DNA from: Specibacter cremeus
GTDB lineage: Bacteria > Actinomycetota > Actinomycetes > Actinomycetales > Micrococcaceae
Assembly: GCF_003946885.1 (NCBI RefSeq)
Contig: NZ_RWKQ01000035.1
Span: 1-48,256, forward strand
Reading direction: 5' to 3'
Length of the DNA stretch: 48,256 nucleotides
Positions 3,915 to 48,256 of the stretch are shown here, piece by piece. The notes under the pieces were generated by a model, which had not been told where the DNA came from, did not search any database, and saw only the letters and a program-made list of their open reading frames with translations. Each line of letters opens with the position of its first letter. Position 1 is the stretch's first letter. The position numbers and the translations under genes are program-made.

Positions 3915-4464
3915 GGTGCTGTGGGCGGCCGGGAGGGCCGGCGGCTTCGTGGCCCTCGCCCTGTTCACGTGCACCGTCCTGCTCGGCATCCTCAACCGCT
4001 CGGGCCGGCCGGTGGCGGGCGTGCCCCGGTTCTCGCTGACCCTGATCCACCGCAACGTGTCCCTGCTGGCGCTCGTGTTCCTGGCGCTGCACGTCGGGAC
4101 GCTGCTGCTGGACCCGTTCGCGAAGCTCACGCTCACCGACGTCGTCGTGCCGTTCCTGGGCCACTACCGGCCCTTCTGGCAGGGACTGGGCACCGTCGCG
4201 CTCGACCTGGCCATCGCCGTCGTCCTCACCAGCCTGCTGCGGCACCGGCTCGGGTACCGGGCCTTCCGGCTGGTCCACTGGCTGTCCTACGCGCTGTGGC
4301 CGGTCGCCGTGGCGCACGGGATCGGCAACGGCACCGACGGGTTCAACGGCTGGTTCCTGGGCGCGACCGTCGTGGCCGTGGTCCTGGTGCTCGCGGCCGT
4401 GGCGTGGCGGCTGTCTGCCGGGTTTGTGGAATCGGCGCGGCTCCGGCAGGGGAGCGCGTCATGA
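3907..4464 (+). CDS. Ferric-reductase-like transmembrane haem protein
   Basis: A 185-residue integral membrane protein with about five or six hydrophobic segments and conserved-looking histidines (H48, H62, H124, H137) placed to bind b-type haem, as in the ferric reductase-like transmembrane domain family. It probably carries electrons across the cytoplasmic membrane. The start ATG at 3907 lies within the last codons of apbE (8-bp overlap) and the stop overlaps the next start as ATGA; a longer reading upstream would run through apbE in another frame and is rejected. Its partners are the downstream NuoF-like flavoprotein and ferredoxin, suggesting NAD(P)H to ferredoxin/flavin to haem transfer. 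The terminal acceptor is unknown. Confidence 0.88.
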   Translation: MDEVLWAAGRAGGFVALALFTCTVLLGILNRSGRPVAGVPRFSLTLIHRNVSLLALVFLALHVGTLLLDPFAKLTLTDVVVPFLGHYRPFWQGLGTVALDLAIAVVLTSLLRHRLGYRAFRLVHWLSYALWPVAVAHGIGNGTDGFNGWFLGATVVAVVLVLAAVAWRLSAGFVESARLRQGSAS

Positions 4465-5630
4465 GCCAGGCCACGATGACTTCCGCGGTCCATCCCGGCT
4501 CCGTGCTCGGACCCAACCGGCTGTTCGCCGCCGGGCAACACGCCGGGCATGCCGGCCACGTGGCCGCCTATGGGCCGCTCCGGGTGGACGCGCTGGGCAC
4601 CGTGTTCATCGAACGGTTGCAGGAGTCCGGGCTGGCCGGGCGTGGCGGGGCCGGGTTCGCCACGTGGCGGAAGTTCGCCGCGCACGGGCGTGACAGGCCC
4701 GTGGTGGTGGCCAACGGCGCCGAGGGCGAACCGCTCAGCTGCAAGGACGCCACGCTCTTGGCACACGCGCCACACCTGGTCATCGACGGGCTGCTGGTGG
4801 CCGGGGCGGTGCTGTCCGCGAAGCGGCTCGTGCTGTACGCGGGCGCCGGATCCCTTCCGGCCCTGGCGTCGGCGCTCGCGGACCGGCCCGACGCCGGAGC
4901 GGTGCGGCTCGTCGAGGCGCCCGACACGTTCCTGGCCGGGGAGACGAGCGCCGTCGCCAACGTCCTGGCCGGCGGCCCGCCGATCCCGCTGGACCGCGTC
5001 ACCGCATCGCGCACCCGGCCGACGCTGGTGCAGAATGTCGAGACCCTGGCCCAGGTGGCGCTGATCGCCCGCTACGGGCCGGCCTGGTTCCGTTCCGCGG
5101 GGACAGCTTCGGATCCGGGCACCCGGCTCGTCACGGTCAGCGGCGACGTGCCGTCCTCGCAGGTGCTCGAGGTCGCCGGCGGGGCCGCCGTCGGGGACGT
5201 GCTGCACGTGGCGGGCGTGGGATCCGGCGTCTCGGCCGTGCTCGTGGGCGGCTACCACGGGCAGTGGGTGCGATCGGCGTCGGCCCCCGTGACGCCGGGC
5301 GCCGGCGTGCTCATGGTGCTGGGGTCCGGGCGCTGCGGCCTCGTCGCGACGGCGCAGATCACCGCCTACCTGGCCGCGCAGTCCGCCCGCCAATGCGGCC
5401 CGTGCCGGTTCGGCCTGCCGGCGCTCGCCGACGCGATGGGCCGGCTGGCGGACCGGGACCCGGATCCCGGGCTGCCGGCGGAACTGGCATCGCTCGGTGC
5501 GTTGGTGTCGGGGCGCGGCGCGTGCCACCACCCGGACGGGACGGTCCGGCTGGTGGCCAGCGCCCTGGACGCGTTCGGCGCCGAGACCCTCCGGCACCTG
5601 GCCGGGACCTGTGTGGAGGACGAATCATGA
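4461..5630 (+). CDS. NuoF-like NADH dehydrogenase subunit (FMN, SLBB, Fe-S domains)
   Basis: A 389-residue soluble flavoprotein related to complex I subunit NuoF, probably oxidising NAD(P)H and passing electrons to the adjacent ferredoxin. GRGGAGF (60-66) is the NADH/FMN-binding glycine loop and NGAEGEP (85-91) also matches NuoF. A ubiquitin-like SLBB region follows around 220-285. The C-terminal Fe-S region has QCGPCRFG (C312, C315) and C355; NuoF normally has CxxCxxC plus a later Cys, and the first of these is Ala here (A309), so the cluster may be ligated differently. ATG 4461 overlaps the previous stop (ATGA) and its own stop overlaps the ferredoxin start (ATGA). Confidence 0.9.
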   Translation: MSQATMTSAVHPGSVLGPNRLFAAGQHAGHAGHVAAYGPLRVDALGTVFIERLQESGLAGRGGAGFATWRKFAAHGRDRPVVVANGAEGEPLSCKDATLLAHAPHLVIDGLLVAGAVLSAKRLVLYAGAGSLPALASALADRPDAGAVRLVEAPDTFLAGETSAVANVLAGGPPIPLDRVTASRTRPTLVQNVETLAQVALIARYGPAWFRSAGTASDPGTRLVTVSGDVPSSQVLEVAGGAAVGDVLHVAGVGSGVSAVLVGGYHGQWVRSASAPVTPGAGVLMVLGSGRCGLVATAQITAYLAAQSARQCGPCRFGLPALADAMGRLADRDPDPGLPAELASLGALVSGRGACHHPDGTVRLVASALDAFGAETLRHLAGTCVEDES

Positions 5631-6864: not shown

Positions 6865-7294
6865 CGTGGGGCTCGGGGGTCTCGACGAGCTCGACCACCG
6901 GGGTCTCGACGGGCTCGACCACCGGATCGGCCCACGAGGGCCGCGGGATCAGGCAGAACGGATGGCCGGCCGGATCGGCGAAGACCCGCGAACGGGCGTC
7001 GTCAGCCGAAAGCCGCGTGGCACCCAGGGCGAGGACGCATGGTTCGGCCGCGTCGACGTCGTCGACCATGACATCCAGATGGACCTGCTGCGGATACGCC
7101 GGGTCCGGCCAGCGCGGCGGCACGTGGTCGGGGGCGAGTTGGAACGCCAGCCCGGAACTGCGCTCATCCGATGCGACCACCACCCAATCCGCCGAGCGGT
7201 ACGTGACGGGGCGGCCCAACAACTCGGAGTAGAACCTGGCCAACGCCAACGGGTCCGGACAGTCGATCACCACATGGTGCATGCGCCCGATCAT
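6857..7294 (-). CDS. Glyoxalase/bleomycin-resistance (VOC) family protein
   Basis: A 145-residue VOC-fold protein: HHVVIDCPDPLALARFY near the start, a central VHLDVMVDD (71-79) and FADPAGHPFCLIP (105-117) near the end are the usual landmarks. Members bind metal or small molecules; the substrate is unknown. The start ATG 7294 is chosen because TAGGCT lies seven bases upstream, as for a leaderless mRNA, and because homology begins there. The C-terminus (about 124-140, PVVEPVETPVVELVETP) is not part of the fold and is encoded by two 24-bp repeats. The gene overlaps the downstream glycosylase start by 8 bp, so the two are co-translated. Confidence 0.85.
   Translation of the reverse strand: MIGRMHHVVIDCPDPLALARFYSELLGRPVTYRSADWVVVASDERSSGLAFQLAPDHVPPRWPDPAYPQQVHLDVMVDDVDAAEPCVLALGATRLSADDARSRVFADPAGHPFCLIPRPSWADPVVEPVETPVVELVETPEPHDA
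6878..6925. repeat. Two 24-bp VEPVET/GLDGLDHR repeats at the glyoxalase 3' end
   Basis: Two adjacent units, 6878-6901 and 6902-6925, differ by one base (GACGAGCTCGAC versus GACGGGCTCGAC). They lie within the last codons of the VOC gene in the same relative orientation as the hsdS copies and add residues without breaking the frame. Confidence 0.9.
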
Positions 7295-43282: not shown

Positions 43283-43321
43283 GGCCAGGGGTGCGGGGAG
43301 CCTGAGGGCTGTTTTGTGACG

Positions 43322-43386
43322 CCGCGTGACCCCGCGTGACCTAGGGTTTCCGGGCGATTGAAGGCGCCCGGCGGCTTCCCTAGCGT
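43322..43386 (+). promoter_or_regulatory. Promoter of the SsuABC-like operon with paired CCGCRTGA boxes
   Basis: CCGCGTGA occurs at 43322-43329 and 43332-43339. TTGAAG (43358-43363), 17 bp and TAGCGT (43381-43386) make the promoter, and an ATG follows six bases later. CCGGGCG/CGCCCGG (43350-43371) flank the -35. The same layout recurs before cysG at 46432-46497. Confidence 0.65.
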
Positions 43387-43392
43387 TGTCGC

Positions 43393-43467
43393 ATGACCAC
43401 TTTGGGACTGCCCGCCACGACGTATCGCCGGACGCGCACCACCACGCGGCGATGTCGCGCAGCCTGA
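43393..43467 (+). CDS. Leaderless 24-codon leader ORF of the SsuABC-like operon
   Basis: ATG 43393 lies exactly six bases after the TAGCGT -10 box and opens a 24-residue frame, MTTLGLPATTYRRTRTTTRR followed by CRAA and TGA. It is Thr/Arg-rich with one Cys (residue 21) close to the stop. It ends 36 bp before the binding-protein gene. Leaderless, Cys-containing short ORFs act as cysteine-responsive attenuators of sulfur operons in mycobacteria; there the Cys codons are clustered, so a single Cys makes the analogy tentative. Confidence 0.5.
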   Translation: MTTLGLPATTYRRTRTTTRRCRAA

Positions 43468-43503
43468 CCACTGCCCGCATCCGCCGAACCCCAAGGACCC
43501 CCC

Positions 43504-44664
43504 ATGCCCCAGCACAACCCAGACAATGAACCCCTGGCCACCACCCGCATCGTCGCCGGCCAGAAACCGCAGCGCCCGACCAAGGCCCGCAAACGCGGAC
43601 TGGAGATCGCCGCCGTCGCCGGCCTCGTGGTGCTCATCGGCGCCGGTGCCGCCGTCGCCTCGGTCACCTCGCAATCGCACGACGCCGTGGCGGCGCAACC
43701 CACGCCGGCAGCGAGCCTGAGGCTGGGCTACTTCGGCAACGTCACCCACGCCCCCGCCCTCGTCGGGCTGCAGGAGGGCCTCTTCGCCAAGGCATTGGGC
43801 GGCACGACGCTGAGCACGGAGGTGTTCAACGCCGGCCCGGCCGCCATCGAGGCGCTGAACGCCGGCGCCATCGACGCCGCCTACGTCGGGCCCAACCCGG
43901 CCATCAACTCCTACGTCAAGAGCCACGGCGACTCGATCCGCATCGTCGCCGGTGCCACCGCCGGCGGCGCCCAGCTCGTCGTCAAGCCGACCATCACCAC
44001 GGCCGCGCAGCTCTTGGGCAAGGTGCTCGCCTCCCCGCAGCTCGGCGGCACCCAGGACGTGGCGCTGCGCTCCTGGCTGGCCGACCAGGGTTTCAAGACC
44101 ACCCCCGGCGGCGGGGGAGACGTCACCATCAACCCCACCGACAACGCCCAGACACTGCGCCTGTTCCAGGACGGCAAGCTCGACGGCGCCTGGCTTCCGG
44201 AACCGTGGGCGTCCCGCCTCGTGCTGCAGGCCGGGGCCAAGGTCCTGGTCAACGAGGGGGACCTGTGGGCGAAGGGCCAGTTCAGCACCACCGTGCTGAT
44301 CGTGAACAAGTCCTACCTGGACGCCCACCCGCAGACCGTCCAGGCGCTGCTGGCCGGCCACGTTCAGGCCGTCACCTGGCTGAACACGCACCAGGACCAG
44401 ACCGCGAAGGTCATCAACGCCGGCCTCGCCACGGCCGCCGGCAAGCCGCTGGCGGATAATGTGATCGCCCGCTCGCTGACCGAACTGAAGTTCTCCGCCG
44501 ACCCGCTCGCCGTCACGTTCCCGACCCTGTTGGCGCACGGGGTCAAGGCCGGCGTCACGAAACAGGCCGACATAAACGGCATCTTCGACCTGACCCCGCT
44601 GAACGCGGCGCTGCGCCAGGCCGGGCAGCCCACGGTGAACGCGGCCGGGCTGGGGACGAACTAG
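43504..44664 (+). CDS. ABC substrate-binding protein, SsuA/TauA (sulfonate/nitrate) family
   Basis: A 386-residue exported binding protein of the NMT1/SsuA/TauA fold. A 30-residue basic cytoplasmic N-terminus (ending TKARKRG) precedes a hydrophobic segment (EIAAVAGLVVLIGAGAAVAS); no lipobox Cys is seen, so it is cleaved or membrane-anchored. The mature domain starts LRLGYFGNVTHAPALVGLQE, with PAAIEALNAGAIDAAYVGPN typical of the family. It probably captures an alkanesulfonate, taurine, sulfate ester or nitrate-like anion; siroheme synthase downstream makes a sulfur or nitrate compound plausible. AAGGA precedes ATG 43504. The stop overlaps the ATPase start by one base (TAGTG). Confidence 0.88.
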   Translation: MPQHNPDNEPLATTRIVAGQKPQRPTKARKRGLEIAAVAGLVVLIGAGAAVASVTSQSHDAVAAQPTPAASLRLGYFGNVTHAPALVGLQEGLFAKALGGTTLSTEVFNAGPAAIEALNAGAIDAAYVGPNPAINSYVKSHGDSIRIVAGATAGGAQLVVKPTITTAAQLLGKVLASPQLGGTQDVALRSWLADQGFKTTPGGGGDVTINPTDNAQTLRLFQDGKLDGAWLPEPWASRLVLQAGAKVLVNEGDLWAKGQFSTTVLIVNKSYLDAHPQTVQALLAGHVQAVTWLNTHQDQTAKVINAGLATAAGKPLADNVIARSLTELKFSADPLAVTFPTLLAHGVKAGVTKQADINGIFDLTPLNAALRQAGQPTVNAAGLGTN

Positions 44665-45476
44665 TGAGCGCCCCCGCAGCCCAGGCCGCGACAGCGGCAA
44701 ATCCAGCCCAGGCCGCCCCCACCCGTGCTGCGGCCGGCGACGCGCGCCGGGCACCCGCCGTCGTGCTCGACTCGGTGGGCAAGCGCTTCGGCGCGGGCGC
44801 GCCCGTGCTCGACGGCGTCAACGCGACCATCCGGCAGGGCGAGTTCGTGGCGCTGCTGGGCGCGTCGGGCTGCGGGAAATCGACCCTGCTGAACATCATC
44901 GCCGGGCTGGACACGCCCACCGCGGGGGCGCTCGAGGTGCCCGCGGACGGCGCCGCGTTCATGTTCCAGGACTCCGCGCTGTTCCCGTGGCGCAGCGCCC
45001 GGGGCAACATCGAGCTGGCGCTGAAGCTGCGCGGGCTCGACAAGTCGCAACGGCGCGAACGGGCCGACGAACTGCTGGACCTGGTGCACCTGGGCCACGC
45101 GGCGGACAAGCGCCCGCACGAATTGTCCGGCGGGATGCGCCAGCGCGTGGCCCTGGCGCGGTCGTTGGCGCAGGAGAAGCCGCTGCTGCTCATGGACGAA
45201 CCGTTCGCCGCGCTCGACGCGATCACCCGCGACCTGCTGCACGACGAACTGGAACGGGTGTGGCGCGAAACCGGGCGGACCATCATCTTCGTCACGCACA
45301 ACGTGCGCGAGGCCGTCCGGCTCGGCCAGCGCGTCCTGCTGCTGTCCTCCCGGCCCGGCCGCGTCGTGGCCGAATGGGACGTCAGCGAGGCACACCGGAC
45401 CAATGCGGGCGCCGCCGGCGAGCTGACGGCCGCCATCACCGCCAGACTGCGCGAGGAGATCCGCCGCCATGCCTGA
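44664..45476 (+). CDS. ABC transporter ATPase, SsuB/TauB family
   Basis: A 270-residue ATPase: Walker A GASGCGKST, Q-loop in MFQDSALFPWRSA, signature LSGGMRQRVALARSLAQEKP and Walker B LLLMDEPFAALDAITRD, followed by the H-loop VTHNVREAVRLG. The LFPWRSA wording is typical of nitrate/sulfonate/taurine importers. An Ala-rich N-terminus of about 30 residues precedes the domain. GTG 44664 shares its G with the preceding stop, and the gene overlaps the permease start by 8 bp, so all three genes are coupled. Confidence 0.92.
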   Translation: MSAPAAQAATAANPAQAAPTRAAAGDARRAPAVVLDSVGKRFGAGAPVLDGVNATIRQGEFVALLGASGCGKSTLLNIIAGLDTPTAGALEVPADGAAFMFQDSALFPWRSARGNIELALKLRGLDKSQRRERADELLDLVHLGHAADKRPHELSGGMRQRVALARSLAQEKPLLLMDEPFAALDAITRDLLHDELERVWRETGRTIIFVTHNVREAVRLGQRVLLLSSRPGRVVAEWDVSEAHRTNAGAAGELTAAITARLREEIRRHA

Positions 45477-46410
45477 AACAGCACTGCCTCAAACAGCACT
45501 GCCTGAAACAGCACTGCCTCAAACCATCACGGCCCCGGCCCTGAAGAGCGGCACGCCTGAGGAGCTGCGCTCGCTGGAGGCCGGGCTCGATTCGCTGCAA
45601 TCCGACGCGGGTGTTCGCCGCGGCATCGAATGGTCGCGTCTGCTGCTGCCGCTGGGCGCCCTCGTGGTGCTCGTGCTGGCCTGGCAGCTGTACGTGTCCC
45701 TGGGCTTCCGGCGCCGCGACCTGGTGCCCGGTCCGCTGGACGTGTTCGGTTCGCTCGGCACCCTGTGGGACGAGGGCAAGATCCAGGAGGCCGTCCTCAC
45801 GTCGCTGCAGCGCGGACTGATCGGCTTCGCCATCAGCGTCGCCGTGGCCACACCCATCGGGTTGCTGCTGGCCCAGGCGAAACCGCTGCGCCGGGCGTTC
45901 GGGCCGCTGATCTCCGGGTTGCAGGTGCTGCCATCGGTCGCGTGGGTGCCGGCCGCCATCATCTGGTTCGGGCTCACCGACGCCACCGTGTTCTTCGTGG
46001 TGCTCATGGGCGCCATCCCATCCATCATCAACGGGCTGATCGCCGGCGTCGACCAGATCCCGCCGCAATACCGGCGCGTCGGCCACGTGCTCGGCGCGTC
46101 CCGGCTCGAGATGGCCCTGCACGTGGTGCTGCCCGCCGCATTGCCCGGCTACGTGGCCGGCCTCAAGCAGGGCTGGGCGTTCTCATGGCGTTCGCTCATG
46201 GCGGCGGAGATCATCGTCATCGGCGGCACGCTCGGGTTCGGCCTGGGCTCGCTGCTCGAACAGGGTCGCCAACTGGCCGACATGGGCATGGTCATGTCCG
46301 CGATCCTGACCATCCTGTTCGTCGGCATCGCGGTGGAACTGCTGGTCTTCGCCCCGGTCGAGAAGCGCCTGCTGCGCGGCCGCGGCCTGCTCGCCGGCAG
46401 CACGCGCTGA
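45469..46410 (+). CDS. ABC transporter permease, SsuC/TauC family
   Basis: A 313-residue membrane permease with about six hydrophobic segments. The EAA-type loop reads GASRLEMALHVVLPAALPGY, and ISGLQVLPSVAWVPAAIIWF is typical of SsuC/TauC/NrtB permeases. The first 20 residues (MPETALPQTALPETALPQTI) are encoded by a 15-bp tandem repeat and look unstructured. ATG 45469 lies within the end of the ATPase gene. It ends 93 bp before cysG, which has its own promoter. Confidence 0.9.
   Translation: MPETALPQTALPETALPQTITAPALKSGTPEELRSLEAGLDSLQSDAGVRRGIEWSRLLLPLGALVVLVLAWQLYVSLGFRRRDLVPGPLDVFGSLGTLWDEGKIQEAVLTSLQRGLIGFAISVAVATPIGLLLAQAKPLRRAFGPLISGLQVLPSVAWVPAAIIWFGLTDATVFFVVLMGAIPSIINGLIAGVDQIPPQYRRVGHVLGASRLEMALHVVLPAALPGYVAGLKQGWAFSWRSLMAAEIIVIGGTLGFGLGSLLEQGRQLADMGMVMSAILTILFVGIAVELLVFAPVEKRLLRGRGLLAGSTR
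45472..45525. repeat. 15-bp tandem repeat at the permease N-terminus
   Basis: CCTGAAACAGCACTG (45472-45486), CCTCAAACAGCACTG (45487-45501), CCTGAAACAGCACTG (45502-45516) and a partial fourth unit. It is in frame (PETAL/PQTAL) and covers the ATPase stop codon in the first unit. Confidence 0.9.
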
Positions 46411-46431
46411 CGGTGACCGCCGAATGTGTCC

Positions 46432-46497
46432 CCGCATGACGCCGCGTGAACCGGTGTTGCGGGGTCATTGATCGCGGCAACACCCCCTACCTAAGGT
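46432..46497 (+). promoter_or_regulatory. cysG promoter with paired CCGCRTGA boxes, leaderless
   Basis: CCGCATGA (46432-46439) and CCGCGTGA (46442-46449), TTGATC (46468-46473), 18 bp and TAAGGT (46492-46497), then six bases to ATG 46504. GGTGTTGC/GCAACACC (46453-46484) flank the -35. Positions relative to the start match those at 43322-43386 within one base. Confidence 0.65.
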
Positions 46498-46503
46498 TTT
46501 TTC

Positions 46504-47859
46504 ATGGCAATTGTGGATCTGTACCCGACGTCGCTGCGGCTGCTCGGCCGGCCCACCCTCGTGGTGGGCGGCGGCCGTGTCGCGGCCCGGCGTGCCCGCG
46601 GCCTGCTCGACGCCGGCGCGCGCGTCACGCTGGTGGCGCCGGAGCTCTCCGCCGAGGCGCGTGAGCTGCTCGGCCTGCTGGCCTGGCGGCAGCGCGAATA
46701 CGAGCCGGGCGACCTCGACGTGCCCTGGTTCGTCGTCACGGCCACCGGCTCCGCGGACGTGGACAACCGTGTCGCCGCCGACGCCGAGGCCCGCCGCCTG
46801 TGGTGCGTGAACGCCGCCGACGCGGACGGCTCCACCGCCTGGACGCCCGCCGTCGCCACGGTGGATGACGTGAAGATCGCCGTCAACGCCGGCGGGGACC
46901 CGCGCCGTGCCATCGCCATCCGCAACGCCGTCGCCCTTTCCCTGGAGACAGGCGAGCTGCCGGTGCGGCGGAGCAAGCCGGTGATTGAGGCTGGGGAAAT
47001 CCGGGGTCTCGACGGGCTCGACCACCGGGGTCTCGACGGGCTCGACCACCGGGGTCTCGACGGGCTCGACCACCGGGGTCTCGACGGGCTCGACCACCGG
47101 GGATCCGTCGCACTGGTCGGCGGCGGGCCCGGCGACCCGGAATTGATCACCGTGCGCGGCCGGCGGCTGCTGGCCCAGGCCGACGTCGTGGTCGCCGACC
47201 GGCTCGGCCCCCGCGACCTGCTGGCCGGGCTGGACCCGGACGTGCGCGTCATCGAGGTCGGCAAGACGCCCGGCCACCACCCCGTCCCGCAACAGGAGAT
47301 CAACGAGATCCTGGTCCGCGAGGCCCGGGCCGGCAACCGCGTGGTCCGGCTCAAGGGCGGGGACCCGTACGTGCTCGGCCGCGGCGGTGAGGAGGCGATC
47401 TTCTGCCGCGCGAACGGCGTGGACGTCGAGGTGGTCCCCGGCGTCACGTCCGCCGTGTCCGTCCCGGCCGCCGCCGGCATCCCCGTCACGCACCGCGGCC
47501 TGGCCAAGGCGTTCACGCTGATCAGCGGCCATGAGGAACTTGAACACGTCCCGTCTGGCAGCGACCACACGGTGGTGCTGCTCATGGGCGTCGGCACACT
47601 GAACCGGTCCATGCCCATCCTGGCGGCGGCCGGGCGCGGCGCTGACTGCCCCGTCGCCATCATCGAGAACGGGTTCGCGCCCGACCAGCGCGTCACGATC
47701 GGCACCCTCGGGACCATCGTGGCGCAGGCCCAGGCGGCGCGCGTGCGCAACCCGGCCGTCGTCGTCGTCGGCGACGTGGTGCGCGTGAGCCCGCTGGCGC
47801 CGCCGGAACTGGCCACCGGGTACTACGGCACCCGGGAAACCGTCAGCCAACTGCCCTAG
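46504..47859 (+). CDS. cysG: Siroheme synthase (precorrin-2 dehydrogenase / uroporphyrinogen-III C-methyltransferase)
   Basis: A 451-residue bifunctional enzyme making siroheme precursors for sulfite and nitrite reductases. The N-terminal CysG-B part (1-160) has LVVGGGRVAARRARGLLDAG (19-38) for NAD binding and carries out precorrin-2 oxidation; the middle dimerisation region of E. coli CysG is absent or shortened. The C-terminal SUMT part (201-440) has VALVGGGPGDPELITVRG, VVRLKGGDPYVLGRGGEE and GVTSAVSVPAAAGIPVTHRG. Between them residues 168-199 are four GLDGLDHR copies from a 24-bp repeat inserted in frame. The ATG at 46504 has no Shine-Dalgarno sequence; TAAGGT six bases upstream indicates a leaderless start. 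Confidence 0.92.
   Translation: MAIVDLYPTSLRLLGRPTLVVGGGRVAARRARGLLDAGARVTLVAPELSAEARELLGLLAWRQREYEPGDLDVPWFVVTATGSADVDNRVAADAEARRLWCVNAADADGSTAWTPAVATVDDVKIAVNAGGDPRRAIAIRNAVALSLETGELPVRRSKPVIEAGEIRGLDGLDHRGLDGLDHRGLDGLDHRGLDGLDHRGSVALVGGGPGDPELITVRGRRLLAQADVVVADRLGPRDLLAGLDPDVRVIEVGKTPGHHPVPQQEINEILVREARAGNRVVRLKGGDPYVLGRGGEEAIFCRANGVDVEVVPGVTSAVSVPAAAGIPVTHRGLAKAFTLISGHEELEHVPSGSDHTVVLLMGVGTLNRSMPILAAAGRGADCPVAIIENGFAPDQRVTIGTLGTIVAQAQAARVRNPAVVVVGDVVRVSPLAPPELATGYYGTRETVSQLP
47005..47100. repeat. Four exact 24-bp repeats in frame within cysG
   Basis: Four identical units (47005-47028, 47029-47052, 47053-47076, 47077-47100), each starting GGTCTCGACGGGCTCGAC and ending CACCGG. They encode GLDGLDHR four times as a linker between the two CysG enzyme halves. 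The same unit appears on the other coding strand as VVEPVETP in hsdS and the glyoxalase gene. Confidence 0.95.
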
Positions 47860-47882
47860 AATTGTCCAAACCCCCTTTTCCC

Positions 47883-48256
47883 ATGACAGAAATGAGCACA
47901 CCCGTGTCCACTGCCATCCCCACCCCTGTTGGAGCCACTGTTGGATCCGCCGAGCGCCCCCTGCGTGTGGCCGTTATTGGTTCGGGTCCGGCGGGGGTGT
48001 ATGCCGCGGACCTGTTGACGAAGTCGCAGGAGGTGGCGGATGGGTTGTCGGTGAGTATTGACCTGTTTGACCGGTATCCGGCGCCGTATGGGTTGATCCG
48101 GTATGGGGTGGCGCCGGATCATCCGCGGATCAAGGGGATCGTGGGCGCGTTGCACAAGGTGTTGGACCGGGGTGATATCCGGTTTTTCGGCAATGTGGCG
48201 TACGGGGTGGATTTGTCGTTGGCGGATTTGCGGGCCCACTATGATGCGGTGGTCTT
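47883..48256 (+). CDS. fprA: Ferredoxin-NADP reductase (FprA-like), 3' end outside the window
   Basis: The partial frame begins MTEMSTPV (ATG 47883, with 47892 as an alternative) and runs to the window edge without a stop. After about 30 linker residues, LRVAVIGSGPAGVYAADLLT is the FAD-binding GxGxxG motif, and IDLFDRYPAPYGLIRYGVAP and DHPRIKGIVGAL match FprA/adrenodoxin-reductase-type enzymes. It would supply reduced ferredoxin, fitting a siroheme-dependent sulfite or nitrite reductase expected beyond the window. TAGAAT (47857-47862), made partly of the cysG stop codon, may be its -10. Third positions favour G and T (gtt, ggt, gtg), unlike cysG. Confidence 0.85.
   Translation, partial: MTEMSTPVSTAIPTPVGATVGSAERPLRVAVIGSGPAGVYAADLLTKSQEVADGLSVSIDLFDRYPAPYGLIRYGVAPDHPRIKGIVGALHKVLDRGDIRFFGNVAYGVDLSLADLRAHYDAVV

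Follow-up and report, generated by a model that had tools for sequence, protein, structure and literature searches.

The window analysed here, a stretch of 48,256 nucleotides (nt) from Specibacter cremeus, an Arthrobacter-type actinobacterium of the family Micrococcaceae, is the entire contig NZ_RWKQ01000035.1 (C29 in our numbering, in which genomes, contigs, loci and families carry the letters G, C, L and f) of a 4.31-Mb genome in 98 contigs. It contains an operon for a SsuABC-like sulfonate transporter of the ATP-binding cassette (ABC) type, followed by the siroheme synthase gene cysG. Upstream of both lies an array of four short direct repeats in 10-bp steps, which we take, with a probability of about 0.78 and judging from sequence comparison, to be the operator of a single sulfur-assimilation activator. 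The following features were recognised at the locus, including a short open reading frame (ORF) in front of ssuA:

43316 to 43350, forward strand: ssu operator, with the boxes GTGAC (43316-43320), GTGAC (43326-43330), GTGAC (43336-43340) and GTTTC (43346-43350)
43358 to 43386, forward strand: predicted ssu core promoter, with -35 TTGAAG (43358) and -10 TAGCGT (43381-43386)
43393 to 43467, forward strand: leader ORF MTTLGLPATTYRRTRTTTRRCRAA, 24 codons, with its ATG at the predicted mRNA 5' end and CGA TGT (Arg-Cys) at 43450-43455
43504 to 44664, forward strand: ssuA-like sulfonate ABC substrate-binding protein (TIGR01728, above cut-off)
44664 to 45476, forward strand: ssuB-like ABC ATPase (PF00005)
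45469 to 46410, forward strand: ssuC-like ABC permease (PF00528; NCBIfam matches all below cut-off)
46426 to 46460, forward strand: cysG operator, with the boxes GTGTC (46426-46430), ATGAC (46436-46440), GTGAA (46446-46450) and GTTGC (46456-46460)
46468 to 46497, forward strand: predicted cysG core promoter, predicted to be leaderless, with -35 TTGATC (46468), -10 TAAGGT (46492-46497) and the ATG at 46504
46504 to 47859, forward strand: cysG, siroheme synthase with precorrin-2 dehydrogenase and uroporphyrinogen-III methyltransferase (TIGR01469 and TIGR01470, above cut-off)
47862 to 48256, forward strand: 5' part of a gene for an Fpr-like NADPH-ferredoxin reductase, truncated at the contig end, with only generic matches of the glutamate-synthase small-subunit type

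A preliminary description of this DNA had noticed paired CCGCRTGA boxes before the ssu operon and before cysG, with promoter elements at nearly identical spacing, and had concluded that one activator controls uptake and siroheme synthesis. The exact pairs exist (CCGCRTGANNCCGCRTGA at 43322-43339 and 46432-46449), corresponding elements are offset by 3110 bp (boxes and -35) or 3111 bp (-10 and ATG), and the ATG follows six bases past the -10 on the ssu side (43393) as well as at cysG (46504). A scan of the complete 4.31-Mb genome returned two exact matches of the pair, both at these promoters, and none for a reversed control. The pair is nevertheless a fragment of the four-box element, and its CCGC part is not conserved. 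With up to two mismatches it occurred at chance level in the own genome (12 matches versus 17 for the control), and even then it missed the promoter of the sulfite reductase gene sir discussed below. As a motif in its own right it was rejected, because it is exact in only 5 of 98 genomes, the own one included, and its two-mismatch matches are at chance. Exact pairs outside the genus were found at ssuA in L015, whereas those in L013 (inside a coding frame) and L014 are not at recognised sulfur genes. An inverted repeat around the -35 is likewise present in the window, with arms of 8 nt at cysG and 7 nt at ssu, but it is not conserved in the genus; arms of at least 7 nt were scored in 3 of 50 genus promoters, two of them from the own genome, and the repeat was discarded as a shared element. 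Altogether, the observation was real and its main conclusion right, while the motif was drawn too narrowly.

The cysG and ssuA loci were collected from 23 genomes of the genus, and 22 cysG and 28 ssu promoters were laid out. The conserved unit consists of four direct repeats with the core GTGAM in 10-bp steps, which end 7 bp before the -35 in the window, where box 1 lies 77 or 78 nt before the ATG. The genus consensus reads RTGTC-GTGAC-GTGAA-GTAAC at cysG and GTGAC-GTGAA-GTGAC-GYGTC at ssu, followed by a TTG-type -35, TAnnnT and ATG. The distance from box 1 to the ATG amounts to 76-80 nt at ssu and cysG, and that from the end of TAnnnT to the ATG to 6-7 nt in all 27 ssu promoters measured (of 28, the one outside this set being that of G015, where the start codon is TTG) and to 6-8 nt in all 22 cysG promoters measured. 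The cores of boxes 1 to 4 hold 8.1, 5.9, 9.1 and 5.5 bits of information, respectively; this alternation of strong boxes (1 and 3) and weak boxes (2 and 4) suggests two units of 20 bp. Provided that the prediction of leaderless promoters holds, the array precedes the transcription start, and its boxes would act as DNA sites rather than as RNA; no known RNA element was found in the window at gathering thresholds. A sigma-70 consensus scan called no promoter at the position of the predicted ssu core promoter. In five genus members a further array follows directly after ssuA (G003:C1:2978796, G004:C35:41389, G011:C1:1031260, G013:C72:308370 and G014:C1:3826398), a place where other members carry a second ssuA with its own operator, and the array between ssuA and ssuB is perhaps the remnant of a lost second ssuA copy.

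The sulfite and nitrite reductase promoters had been named in the preliminary description as places where the motif might recur. The gene sir is the first of sir-cysH-cysD-cysN, and the upstream array GTGAC-RTTGC-GTGAA-GTTGC was found at the same place as at ssu and cysG, in the own genome on contig C2. Arrays were read at sir in 21 genus genomes including the own one; G001 and G022 are outside that set, and model matches (see below) occur there as well. Box 1 lies 77-79 nt before the ATG in the 21 sir promoters. To test the period, the 21 sir upstream regions were scanned at periods from 6 to 14 with a single-box matrix to which only ssu and cysG sites had contributed. At period 10 the mean score was 11.1 against a null of -16.7 (standard deviation, sd, 6.8), i.e. 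4.1 sd, the next best being period 11 with 1.4 sd, and 22 control windows taken 700 nt away were flat. The link to sir is supported by this test and by the spacing. Two models were built for searches with the entire element, R1 from 46 whole ssu and cysG sites and R2 from 73 sites of sir, cysG, ssu and a divergent locus of relatives described below. In the window R2 matches the ssu operator at 43313-43361 (E 5.5e-10), to which a three-box pattern also matches, and the cysG operator at 46423-46471 (E 1.4e-10), both being training sites. Searched against the own genome it gave three strong sites, at cysG (2.2e-9), ssu (8.6e-9) and sir (3.2e-7), and the next site only at E 0.14. R2 matches occur at the sir, cysG and ssu promoters in all 23 genus genomes, a number that counts occupancy rather than independent detection, since most of these matches are training sites. 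The array thus marks promoters of sulfite reductase and cysHDN, of siroheme synthesis and of sulfur-source uptake, as expected for a regulon. Once properly defined, the motif is neither absent from other assimilation promoters nor scattered. Co-regulation of uptake and siroheme synthesis, as first proposed, is strongly supported by the operator at both promoters in 23/23 genus genomes and extends to sir-cysHDN, but the activating nature of the control is suggested by position only.

The array was also recognised outside the genus. In a second genus of the family, the sir promoters of five genomes were matched by R2 with E values from 1.4e-6 to 1.7e-3, and four of them (E 1.4e-6 to 2.7e-5) reached 6.5 sd at period 10, with 1.9 sd for the next best period. 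Two further sites that were neither part of R2 nor chosen by pattern, at cysG of L299 and at sir of L306, scored 3.9e-6 and 1.9e-5. In a second family, f19, arrays precede sir, for example four perfect GTGAC boxes in G179, and R2 gave E values from 1e-4 to 0.04 at six loci. The survey of sir in the order covered the loci from the best 30 of 103 genomes with sir, one of them being the own genome. Sequence comparison thus establishes a conserved four-box direct repeat with 10-bp period just upstream of the predicted -35 of the sir-cysHDN, ssuABC and cysG-fpr promoters, and before other sulfur genes in other families of the order.

Several observations weigh against a single operator with a dedicated activator. 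All 23 sir loci escape R1 at E values up to 1, because the even boxes of sir read RTTGC, and in the own genome the -35 of the sir promoter is poor. Among the 28 ssu sites of the genus, two depart from the pattern and were not used for the models, namely the second site of G005 (one 9-bp step) and the second site of G020 (-35 one base nearer). The cysG gene of L306, which belongs to another genus, has no array, and none was seen in the sir upstream regions looked at in the families f7, f8, f13 and f14. The ORF lists of 11 of 15 wide stretches around arrays (all except L297, L300, L302 and L305) were read by eye for regulator genes and revealed nothing consistent; GntR genes lie some kb from the arrays in L296 and L298. 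Finally, a strict triple-GTGAC pattern occurs in 34 of 396 genomes of the order versus 19 with the reversed control (counted by eye), an only modest excess, so that many single matches are due to chance.

Thirty of the genomes with the triple pattern gave loci, of which 21 were read in context in addition to two already known ones (G000 ssu and G179 sir); the other seven, mostly simple repeats, lie outside this reading, and four matched genomes gave no loci. Eight loci belong to clear sulfur genes: ssuA in G000, G028 and G058, sir in G179 and G278, an O-acetylhomoserine sulfhydrylase gene in G356 and G111, and a gene for an NtaA/DmoA-type flavin monooxygenase in G298. The genes of G356 and G298 were named by NCBIfam, the others by eye or through the sir and ssu matches. 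In six genomes the pattern precedes a conserved transporter of the major facilitator superfamily (MFS), which may serve to import a sulfur compound. Such arrays before an MFS transporter lie in two other families at L296 8338-8363, L297 9164-9205, L298 9221-9247 and L292 9215-9256, with an NtaA/DmoA-type monooxygenase as neighbour in L296 and a MetQ-like lipoprotein in L292. No clear link to sulfur was apparent at the remaining nine loci read; at that of G233, the opposite strand carries a metF-like gene at a distance of 200 nt. Across the class, 38 of 394 genomes carry the triple pattern, and no recognised sulfur context was seen at the 21 loci read outside the order. The strict form of the array therefore looks limited to the order, and degenerate forms elsewhere are possible.

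Apart from sir, ssu and cysG, the clearest sites belong to a divergent locus of relatives (L131-L135 and L303) that was not seen in the own genome, where a PF13454 FAD/NAD(P) protein and an acetyltransferase face an amino-acid ABC transporter. Both divergent promoters carry arrays in G006, G011, G013 and G014, and one of the two clearly does so in G007 and G012; R1, which was not trained on this locus, gives E values from 5e-4 to 0.5. The proteins of G014 were scanned and the others named by eye. The closest model for the transporter is a cystine permease, below its cut-off, and in G011 the transporter is followed by luciferase-like proteins (by eye). The locus looks like an undescribed cluster for organosulfur use. 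Other weak R1 sites (L136-L141, L143, L144 and L147-L150) were judged to be chance matches, as they are inside coding frames or without sulfur context. An NMT1/SsuA-like protein gene in L145 (R2 E 9e-4) and a luciferase-like monooxygenase gene in L146 (named by eye) are possible regulon members.

The ssu side differs in its start region. The ATG at 43393 is not the start of ssuA: it opens the separate 24-codon leader ORF, and ssuA starts at 43504 behind an AAGGA sequence. Among the 28 genus ssu sites, the promoter-proximal ATG opens a separate ORF in 12 and runs into ssuA in 16. CGATGT is found in 9 of the 12 genus leaders and is in frame, as Arg-Cys, in 8 of them, the exception being G010; the four leaders read in other genera all have it in frame, which gives 12 of 13 leaders containing CGATGT overall. 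Leaders without a Cys codon are those of G005 (second site), G010, G013 and G015. The position of the Cys codons near the stop is that expected for cysteine leader peptides, whereas a run of several Cys codons was not seen in these leaders, which have one to three (one in the own genome). None of eight leader peptides matched a named leader-peptide family in NCBIfam. From the leader ORF to ssuA the sequence seems C-rich and G-poor, as would fit a mechanism of the Rho type. These features suggest a second, cysteine-coupled layer of control at ssu. Short ORFs with Cys codons before cys operons and without an obvious terminator are described for Actinobacteria in the available part of PMC1262725, and for mycobacteria some cysteine leader peptides are placed on leaderless mRNAs in the accessible section of PMC4633059. 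The leaders found here share with them the small size and the placement of Cys codons close to the stop; they differ in preceding ssuA and in having, instead of a run, one to three Cys codons, in many cases just one Arg-Cys.

Some observations concern the neighbouring genes. The top NCBIfam models for the ssuB-like ATPase are taurine- and nitrate-type ATPases, none of those shown reaching its cut-off, and in relatives a full-length Fpr-like homologue, named by eye, follows cysG. At the start of ssuC, a 15-bp tandem repeat (45470-45524) encodes an ALPQT/ALPET-type repeat at the protein N-terminus. Within cysG, 4.2 perfect tandem copies of a 24-bp unit (47001-47102) are read in frame as RGLDGLDH repeats between both enzyme domains. 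This unit contains a GTCGAGCCCGTCGAGACC-type sequence that is present again near 907-999 and 6878-6919, with 10 matches in the window at up to 3 mismatches versus 0.15 expected, and coding stretches resembling the unit exist elsewhere in the own genome. Upstream of ssuA in G006 (L081 reversed, 3952-4971) lies a conserved gene of about 340 amino acids that is relA/spoT-like by eye only; similar ORFs occur in G003, G004, G009 and G012, and in the window they do not adjoin ssuA.

Concerning the protein that might bind the array, two 20-bp units would suit AraC-type monomers with two reading heads, OmpR-type subunit pairs or another head-to-tail binder. None of the array sites read precedes a regulator gene. 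An operator of tandem direct repeats beside the -35 is in keeping with the OmpR/PhoB family, and a regulator of this type that places a subunit on every 10 bp, such as the own NnaR-like HemD-OmpR protein, which could sense siroheme precursors, is a rival reading of some, though less than even, probability. GlnR/PhoP operators are likewise tandem direct repeats upstream of the promoter, but with an 11-bp repeat instead of 10 bp, a period that reached only the 1.4 sd given above against 4.1 sd at period 10. In the own genome 13 matches to Trans_reg_C were obtained, of which 12 exceed the cut-off and one lies in a HemD-like protein (by eye) encoded behind nirB-cobA. The latter gene stands in a row with nirB and a second cobA at L261 5683-10331 (contig C89), and this nitrite locus has no R2 site and thus lacks the sulfur operator. 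NnaR, a nitrate/nitrite regulator of actinomycetes, is comparable as an activator of siroheme-enzyme genes whose half-site contains GTGA and whose targets in mycobacteria are described with features of leaderless transcripts (PMC6277429). Its published motif in the same source is a degenerate palindrome, CTCAC-N16-GTGAG, with a 16-nt spacer and near a GlnR box, whereas CTCAC-N16-GTGAG was found in 0 of our 73 sites. Together with the array-free nirB locus, this makes the NnaR-like protein disfavoured as the activator.

A far less probable owner of the operator is the AraC-family protein (DUF6597 and HTH_18) encoded beside ssuA in several relatives, of which a monomer would contact a strong box and a weak one through its two helix-turn-helix units, so that two tandem monomers would fit the two 20-bp units. 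Its gene lies immediately upstream of an ssu operator in G002, G004, G007, G012, G014 and G016, an AraC domain was recognised in the protein, and some match at E 1e-5 exists in 19 of the 23 genus genomes. However, an intact close copy (E < 1e-100) is present in only 8 of 23, in two of which (G006 and G013) it lies elsewhere in the genome. There is no match in G005, G010, G020 and G021, a weak one (1e-17 or worse) in G001, G003, G008, G009, G015 and G022, and a protein of only 29-36% identity in G000, G017 and G019, while the copy is truncated in G018 and broken in G011. With arrays in 23/23 genus genomes and the protein missing or weak in 10 and remote in 3 more, this neighbour is refuted as the general factor; another AraC protein could take the role.

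Equally improbable is control by an activator of the ROK type related to CysR/SsuR of Corynebacterium glutamicum. According to the accessible portion of PMC2580772, these proteins govern, as an activator layer, sulfate reduction as well as sulfonate use, the functions concerned here too, from activating sites located 3 bp ahead of the -35; their site is given there as an inverted repeat with a TGAAtnnAAt half, in contrast to the four direct repeats at 10 bp reported here. TGAA[AT]NNAA was found in 0 of 73 sites on either strand. That the repeats are mere promoter decoration or a chance likeness of GC-rich DNA without a dedicated factor is very improbable, for although the two-mismatch CCGCRTGA pair is at chance, the strict triple is modestly above its control over the order and the 21 loci looked at outside it have no sulfur context, the exact 10-bp phase, the fixed promoter distance, the conservation and the concentration on sulfur genes all speak against chance.

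We return to a single activator of sulfur assimilation. Transcription starts, binding and regulation as outlined here are inferred from sequence features. One protein that reads the DNA with a single unit in each helical turn would fill the four boxes head to tail on one face of the DNA and, when reduced sulfur is short, would touch RNA polymerase at the weak -35. Uptake, sulfite reduction and siroheme supply would thereby be turned on jointly. A second layer might act at ssu, where the mRNA would begin at the ATG of the leader ORF and the Arg-Cys codons near its stop would couple ssuA expression to cysteine supply. In enterobacteria, the LysR-type CysB turns on uptake and reduction of sulfur sources together, i.e. 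with a like function in the cysteine regulon, through dyad sites of the LysR type. To our knowledge, head-to-tail arrays with strict 10-bp phasing are an unusual operator geometry. The kind of system is hence known, while the operator and, probably, the factor are new to the literature searched: no description of the four-box operator was found in the open-access literature, with most subscription papers outside it, nor did the searches yield a description of how sulfate and sulfonate assimilation is controlled in this order.

We give slightly better than even odds to the broader proposal that several families of the order share an undescribed master activator of sulfur acquisition. It would bind a head-to-tail array of four 10-bp boxes, of which two are strong and two weak, at promoters predicted to be leaderless, to which ssu would add a leaderless Arg-Cys leader ORF, initiation reading the sulfur status and the first codons the cysteine supply. 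With a sharply defined operator and dozens of orthologous examples, the factor should be findable by pull-down. The operator definition itself predicts the regulon of the activator and names the promoters to examine.

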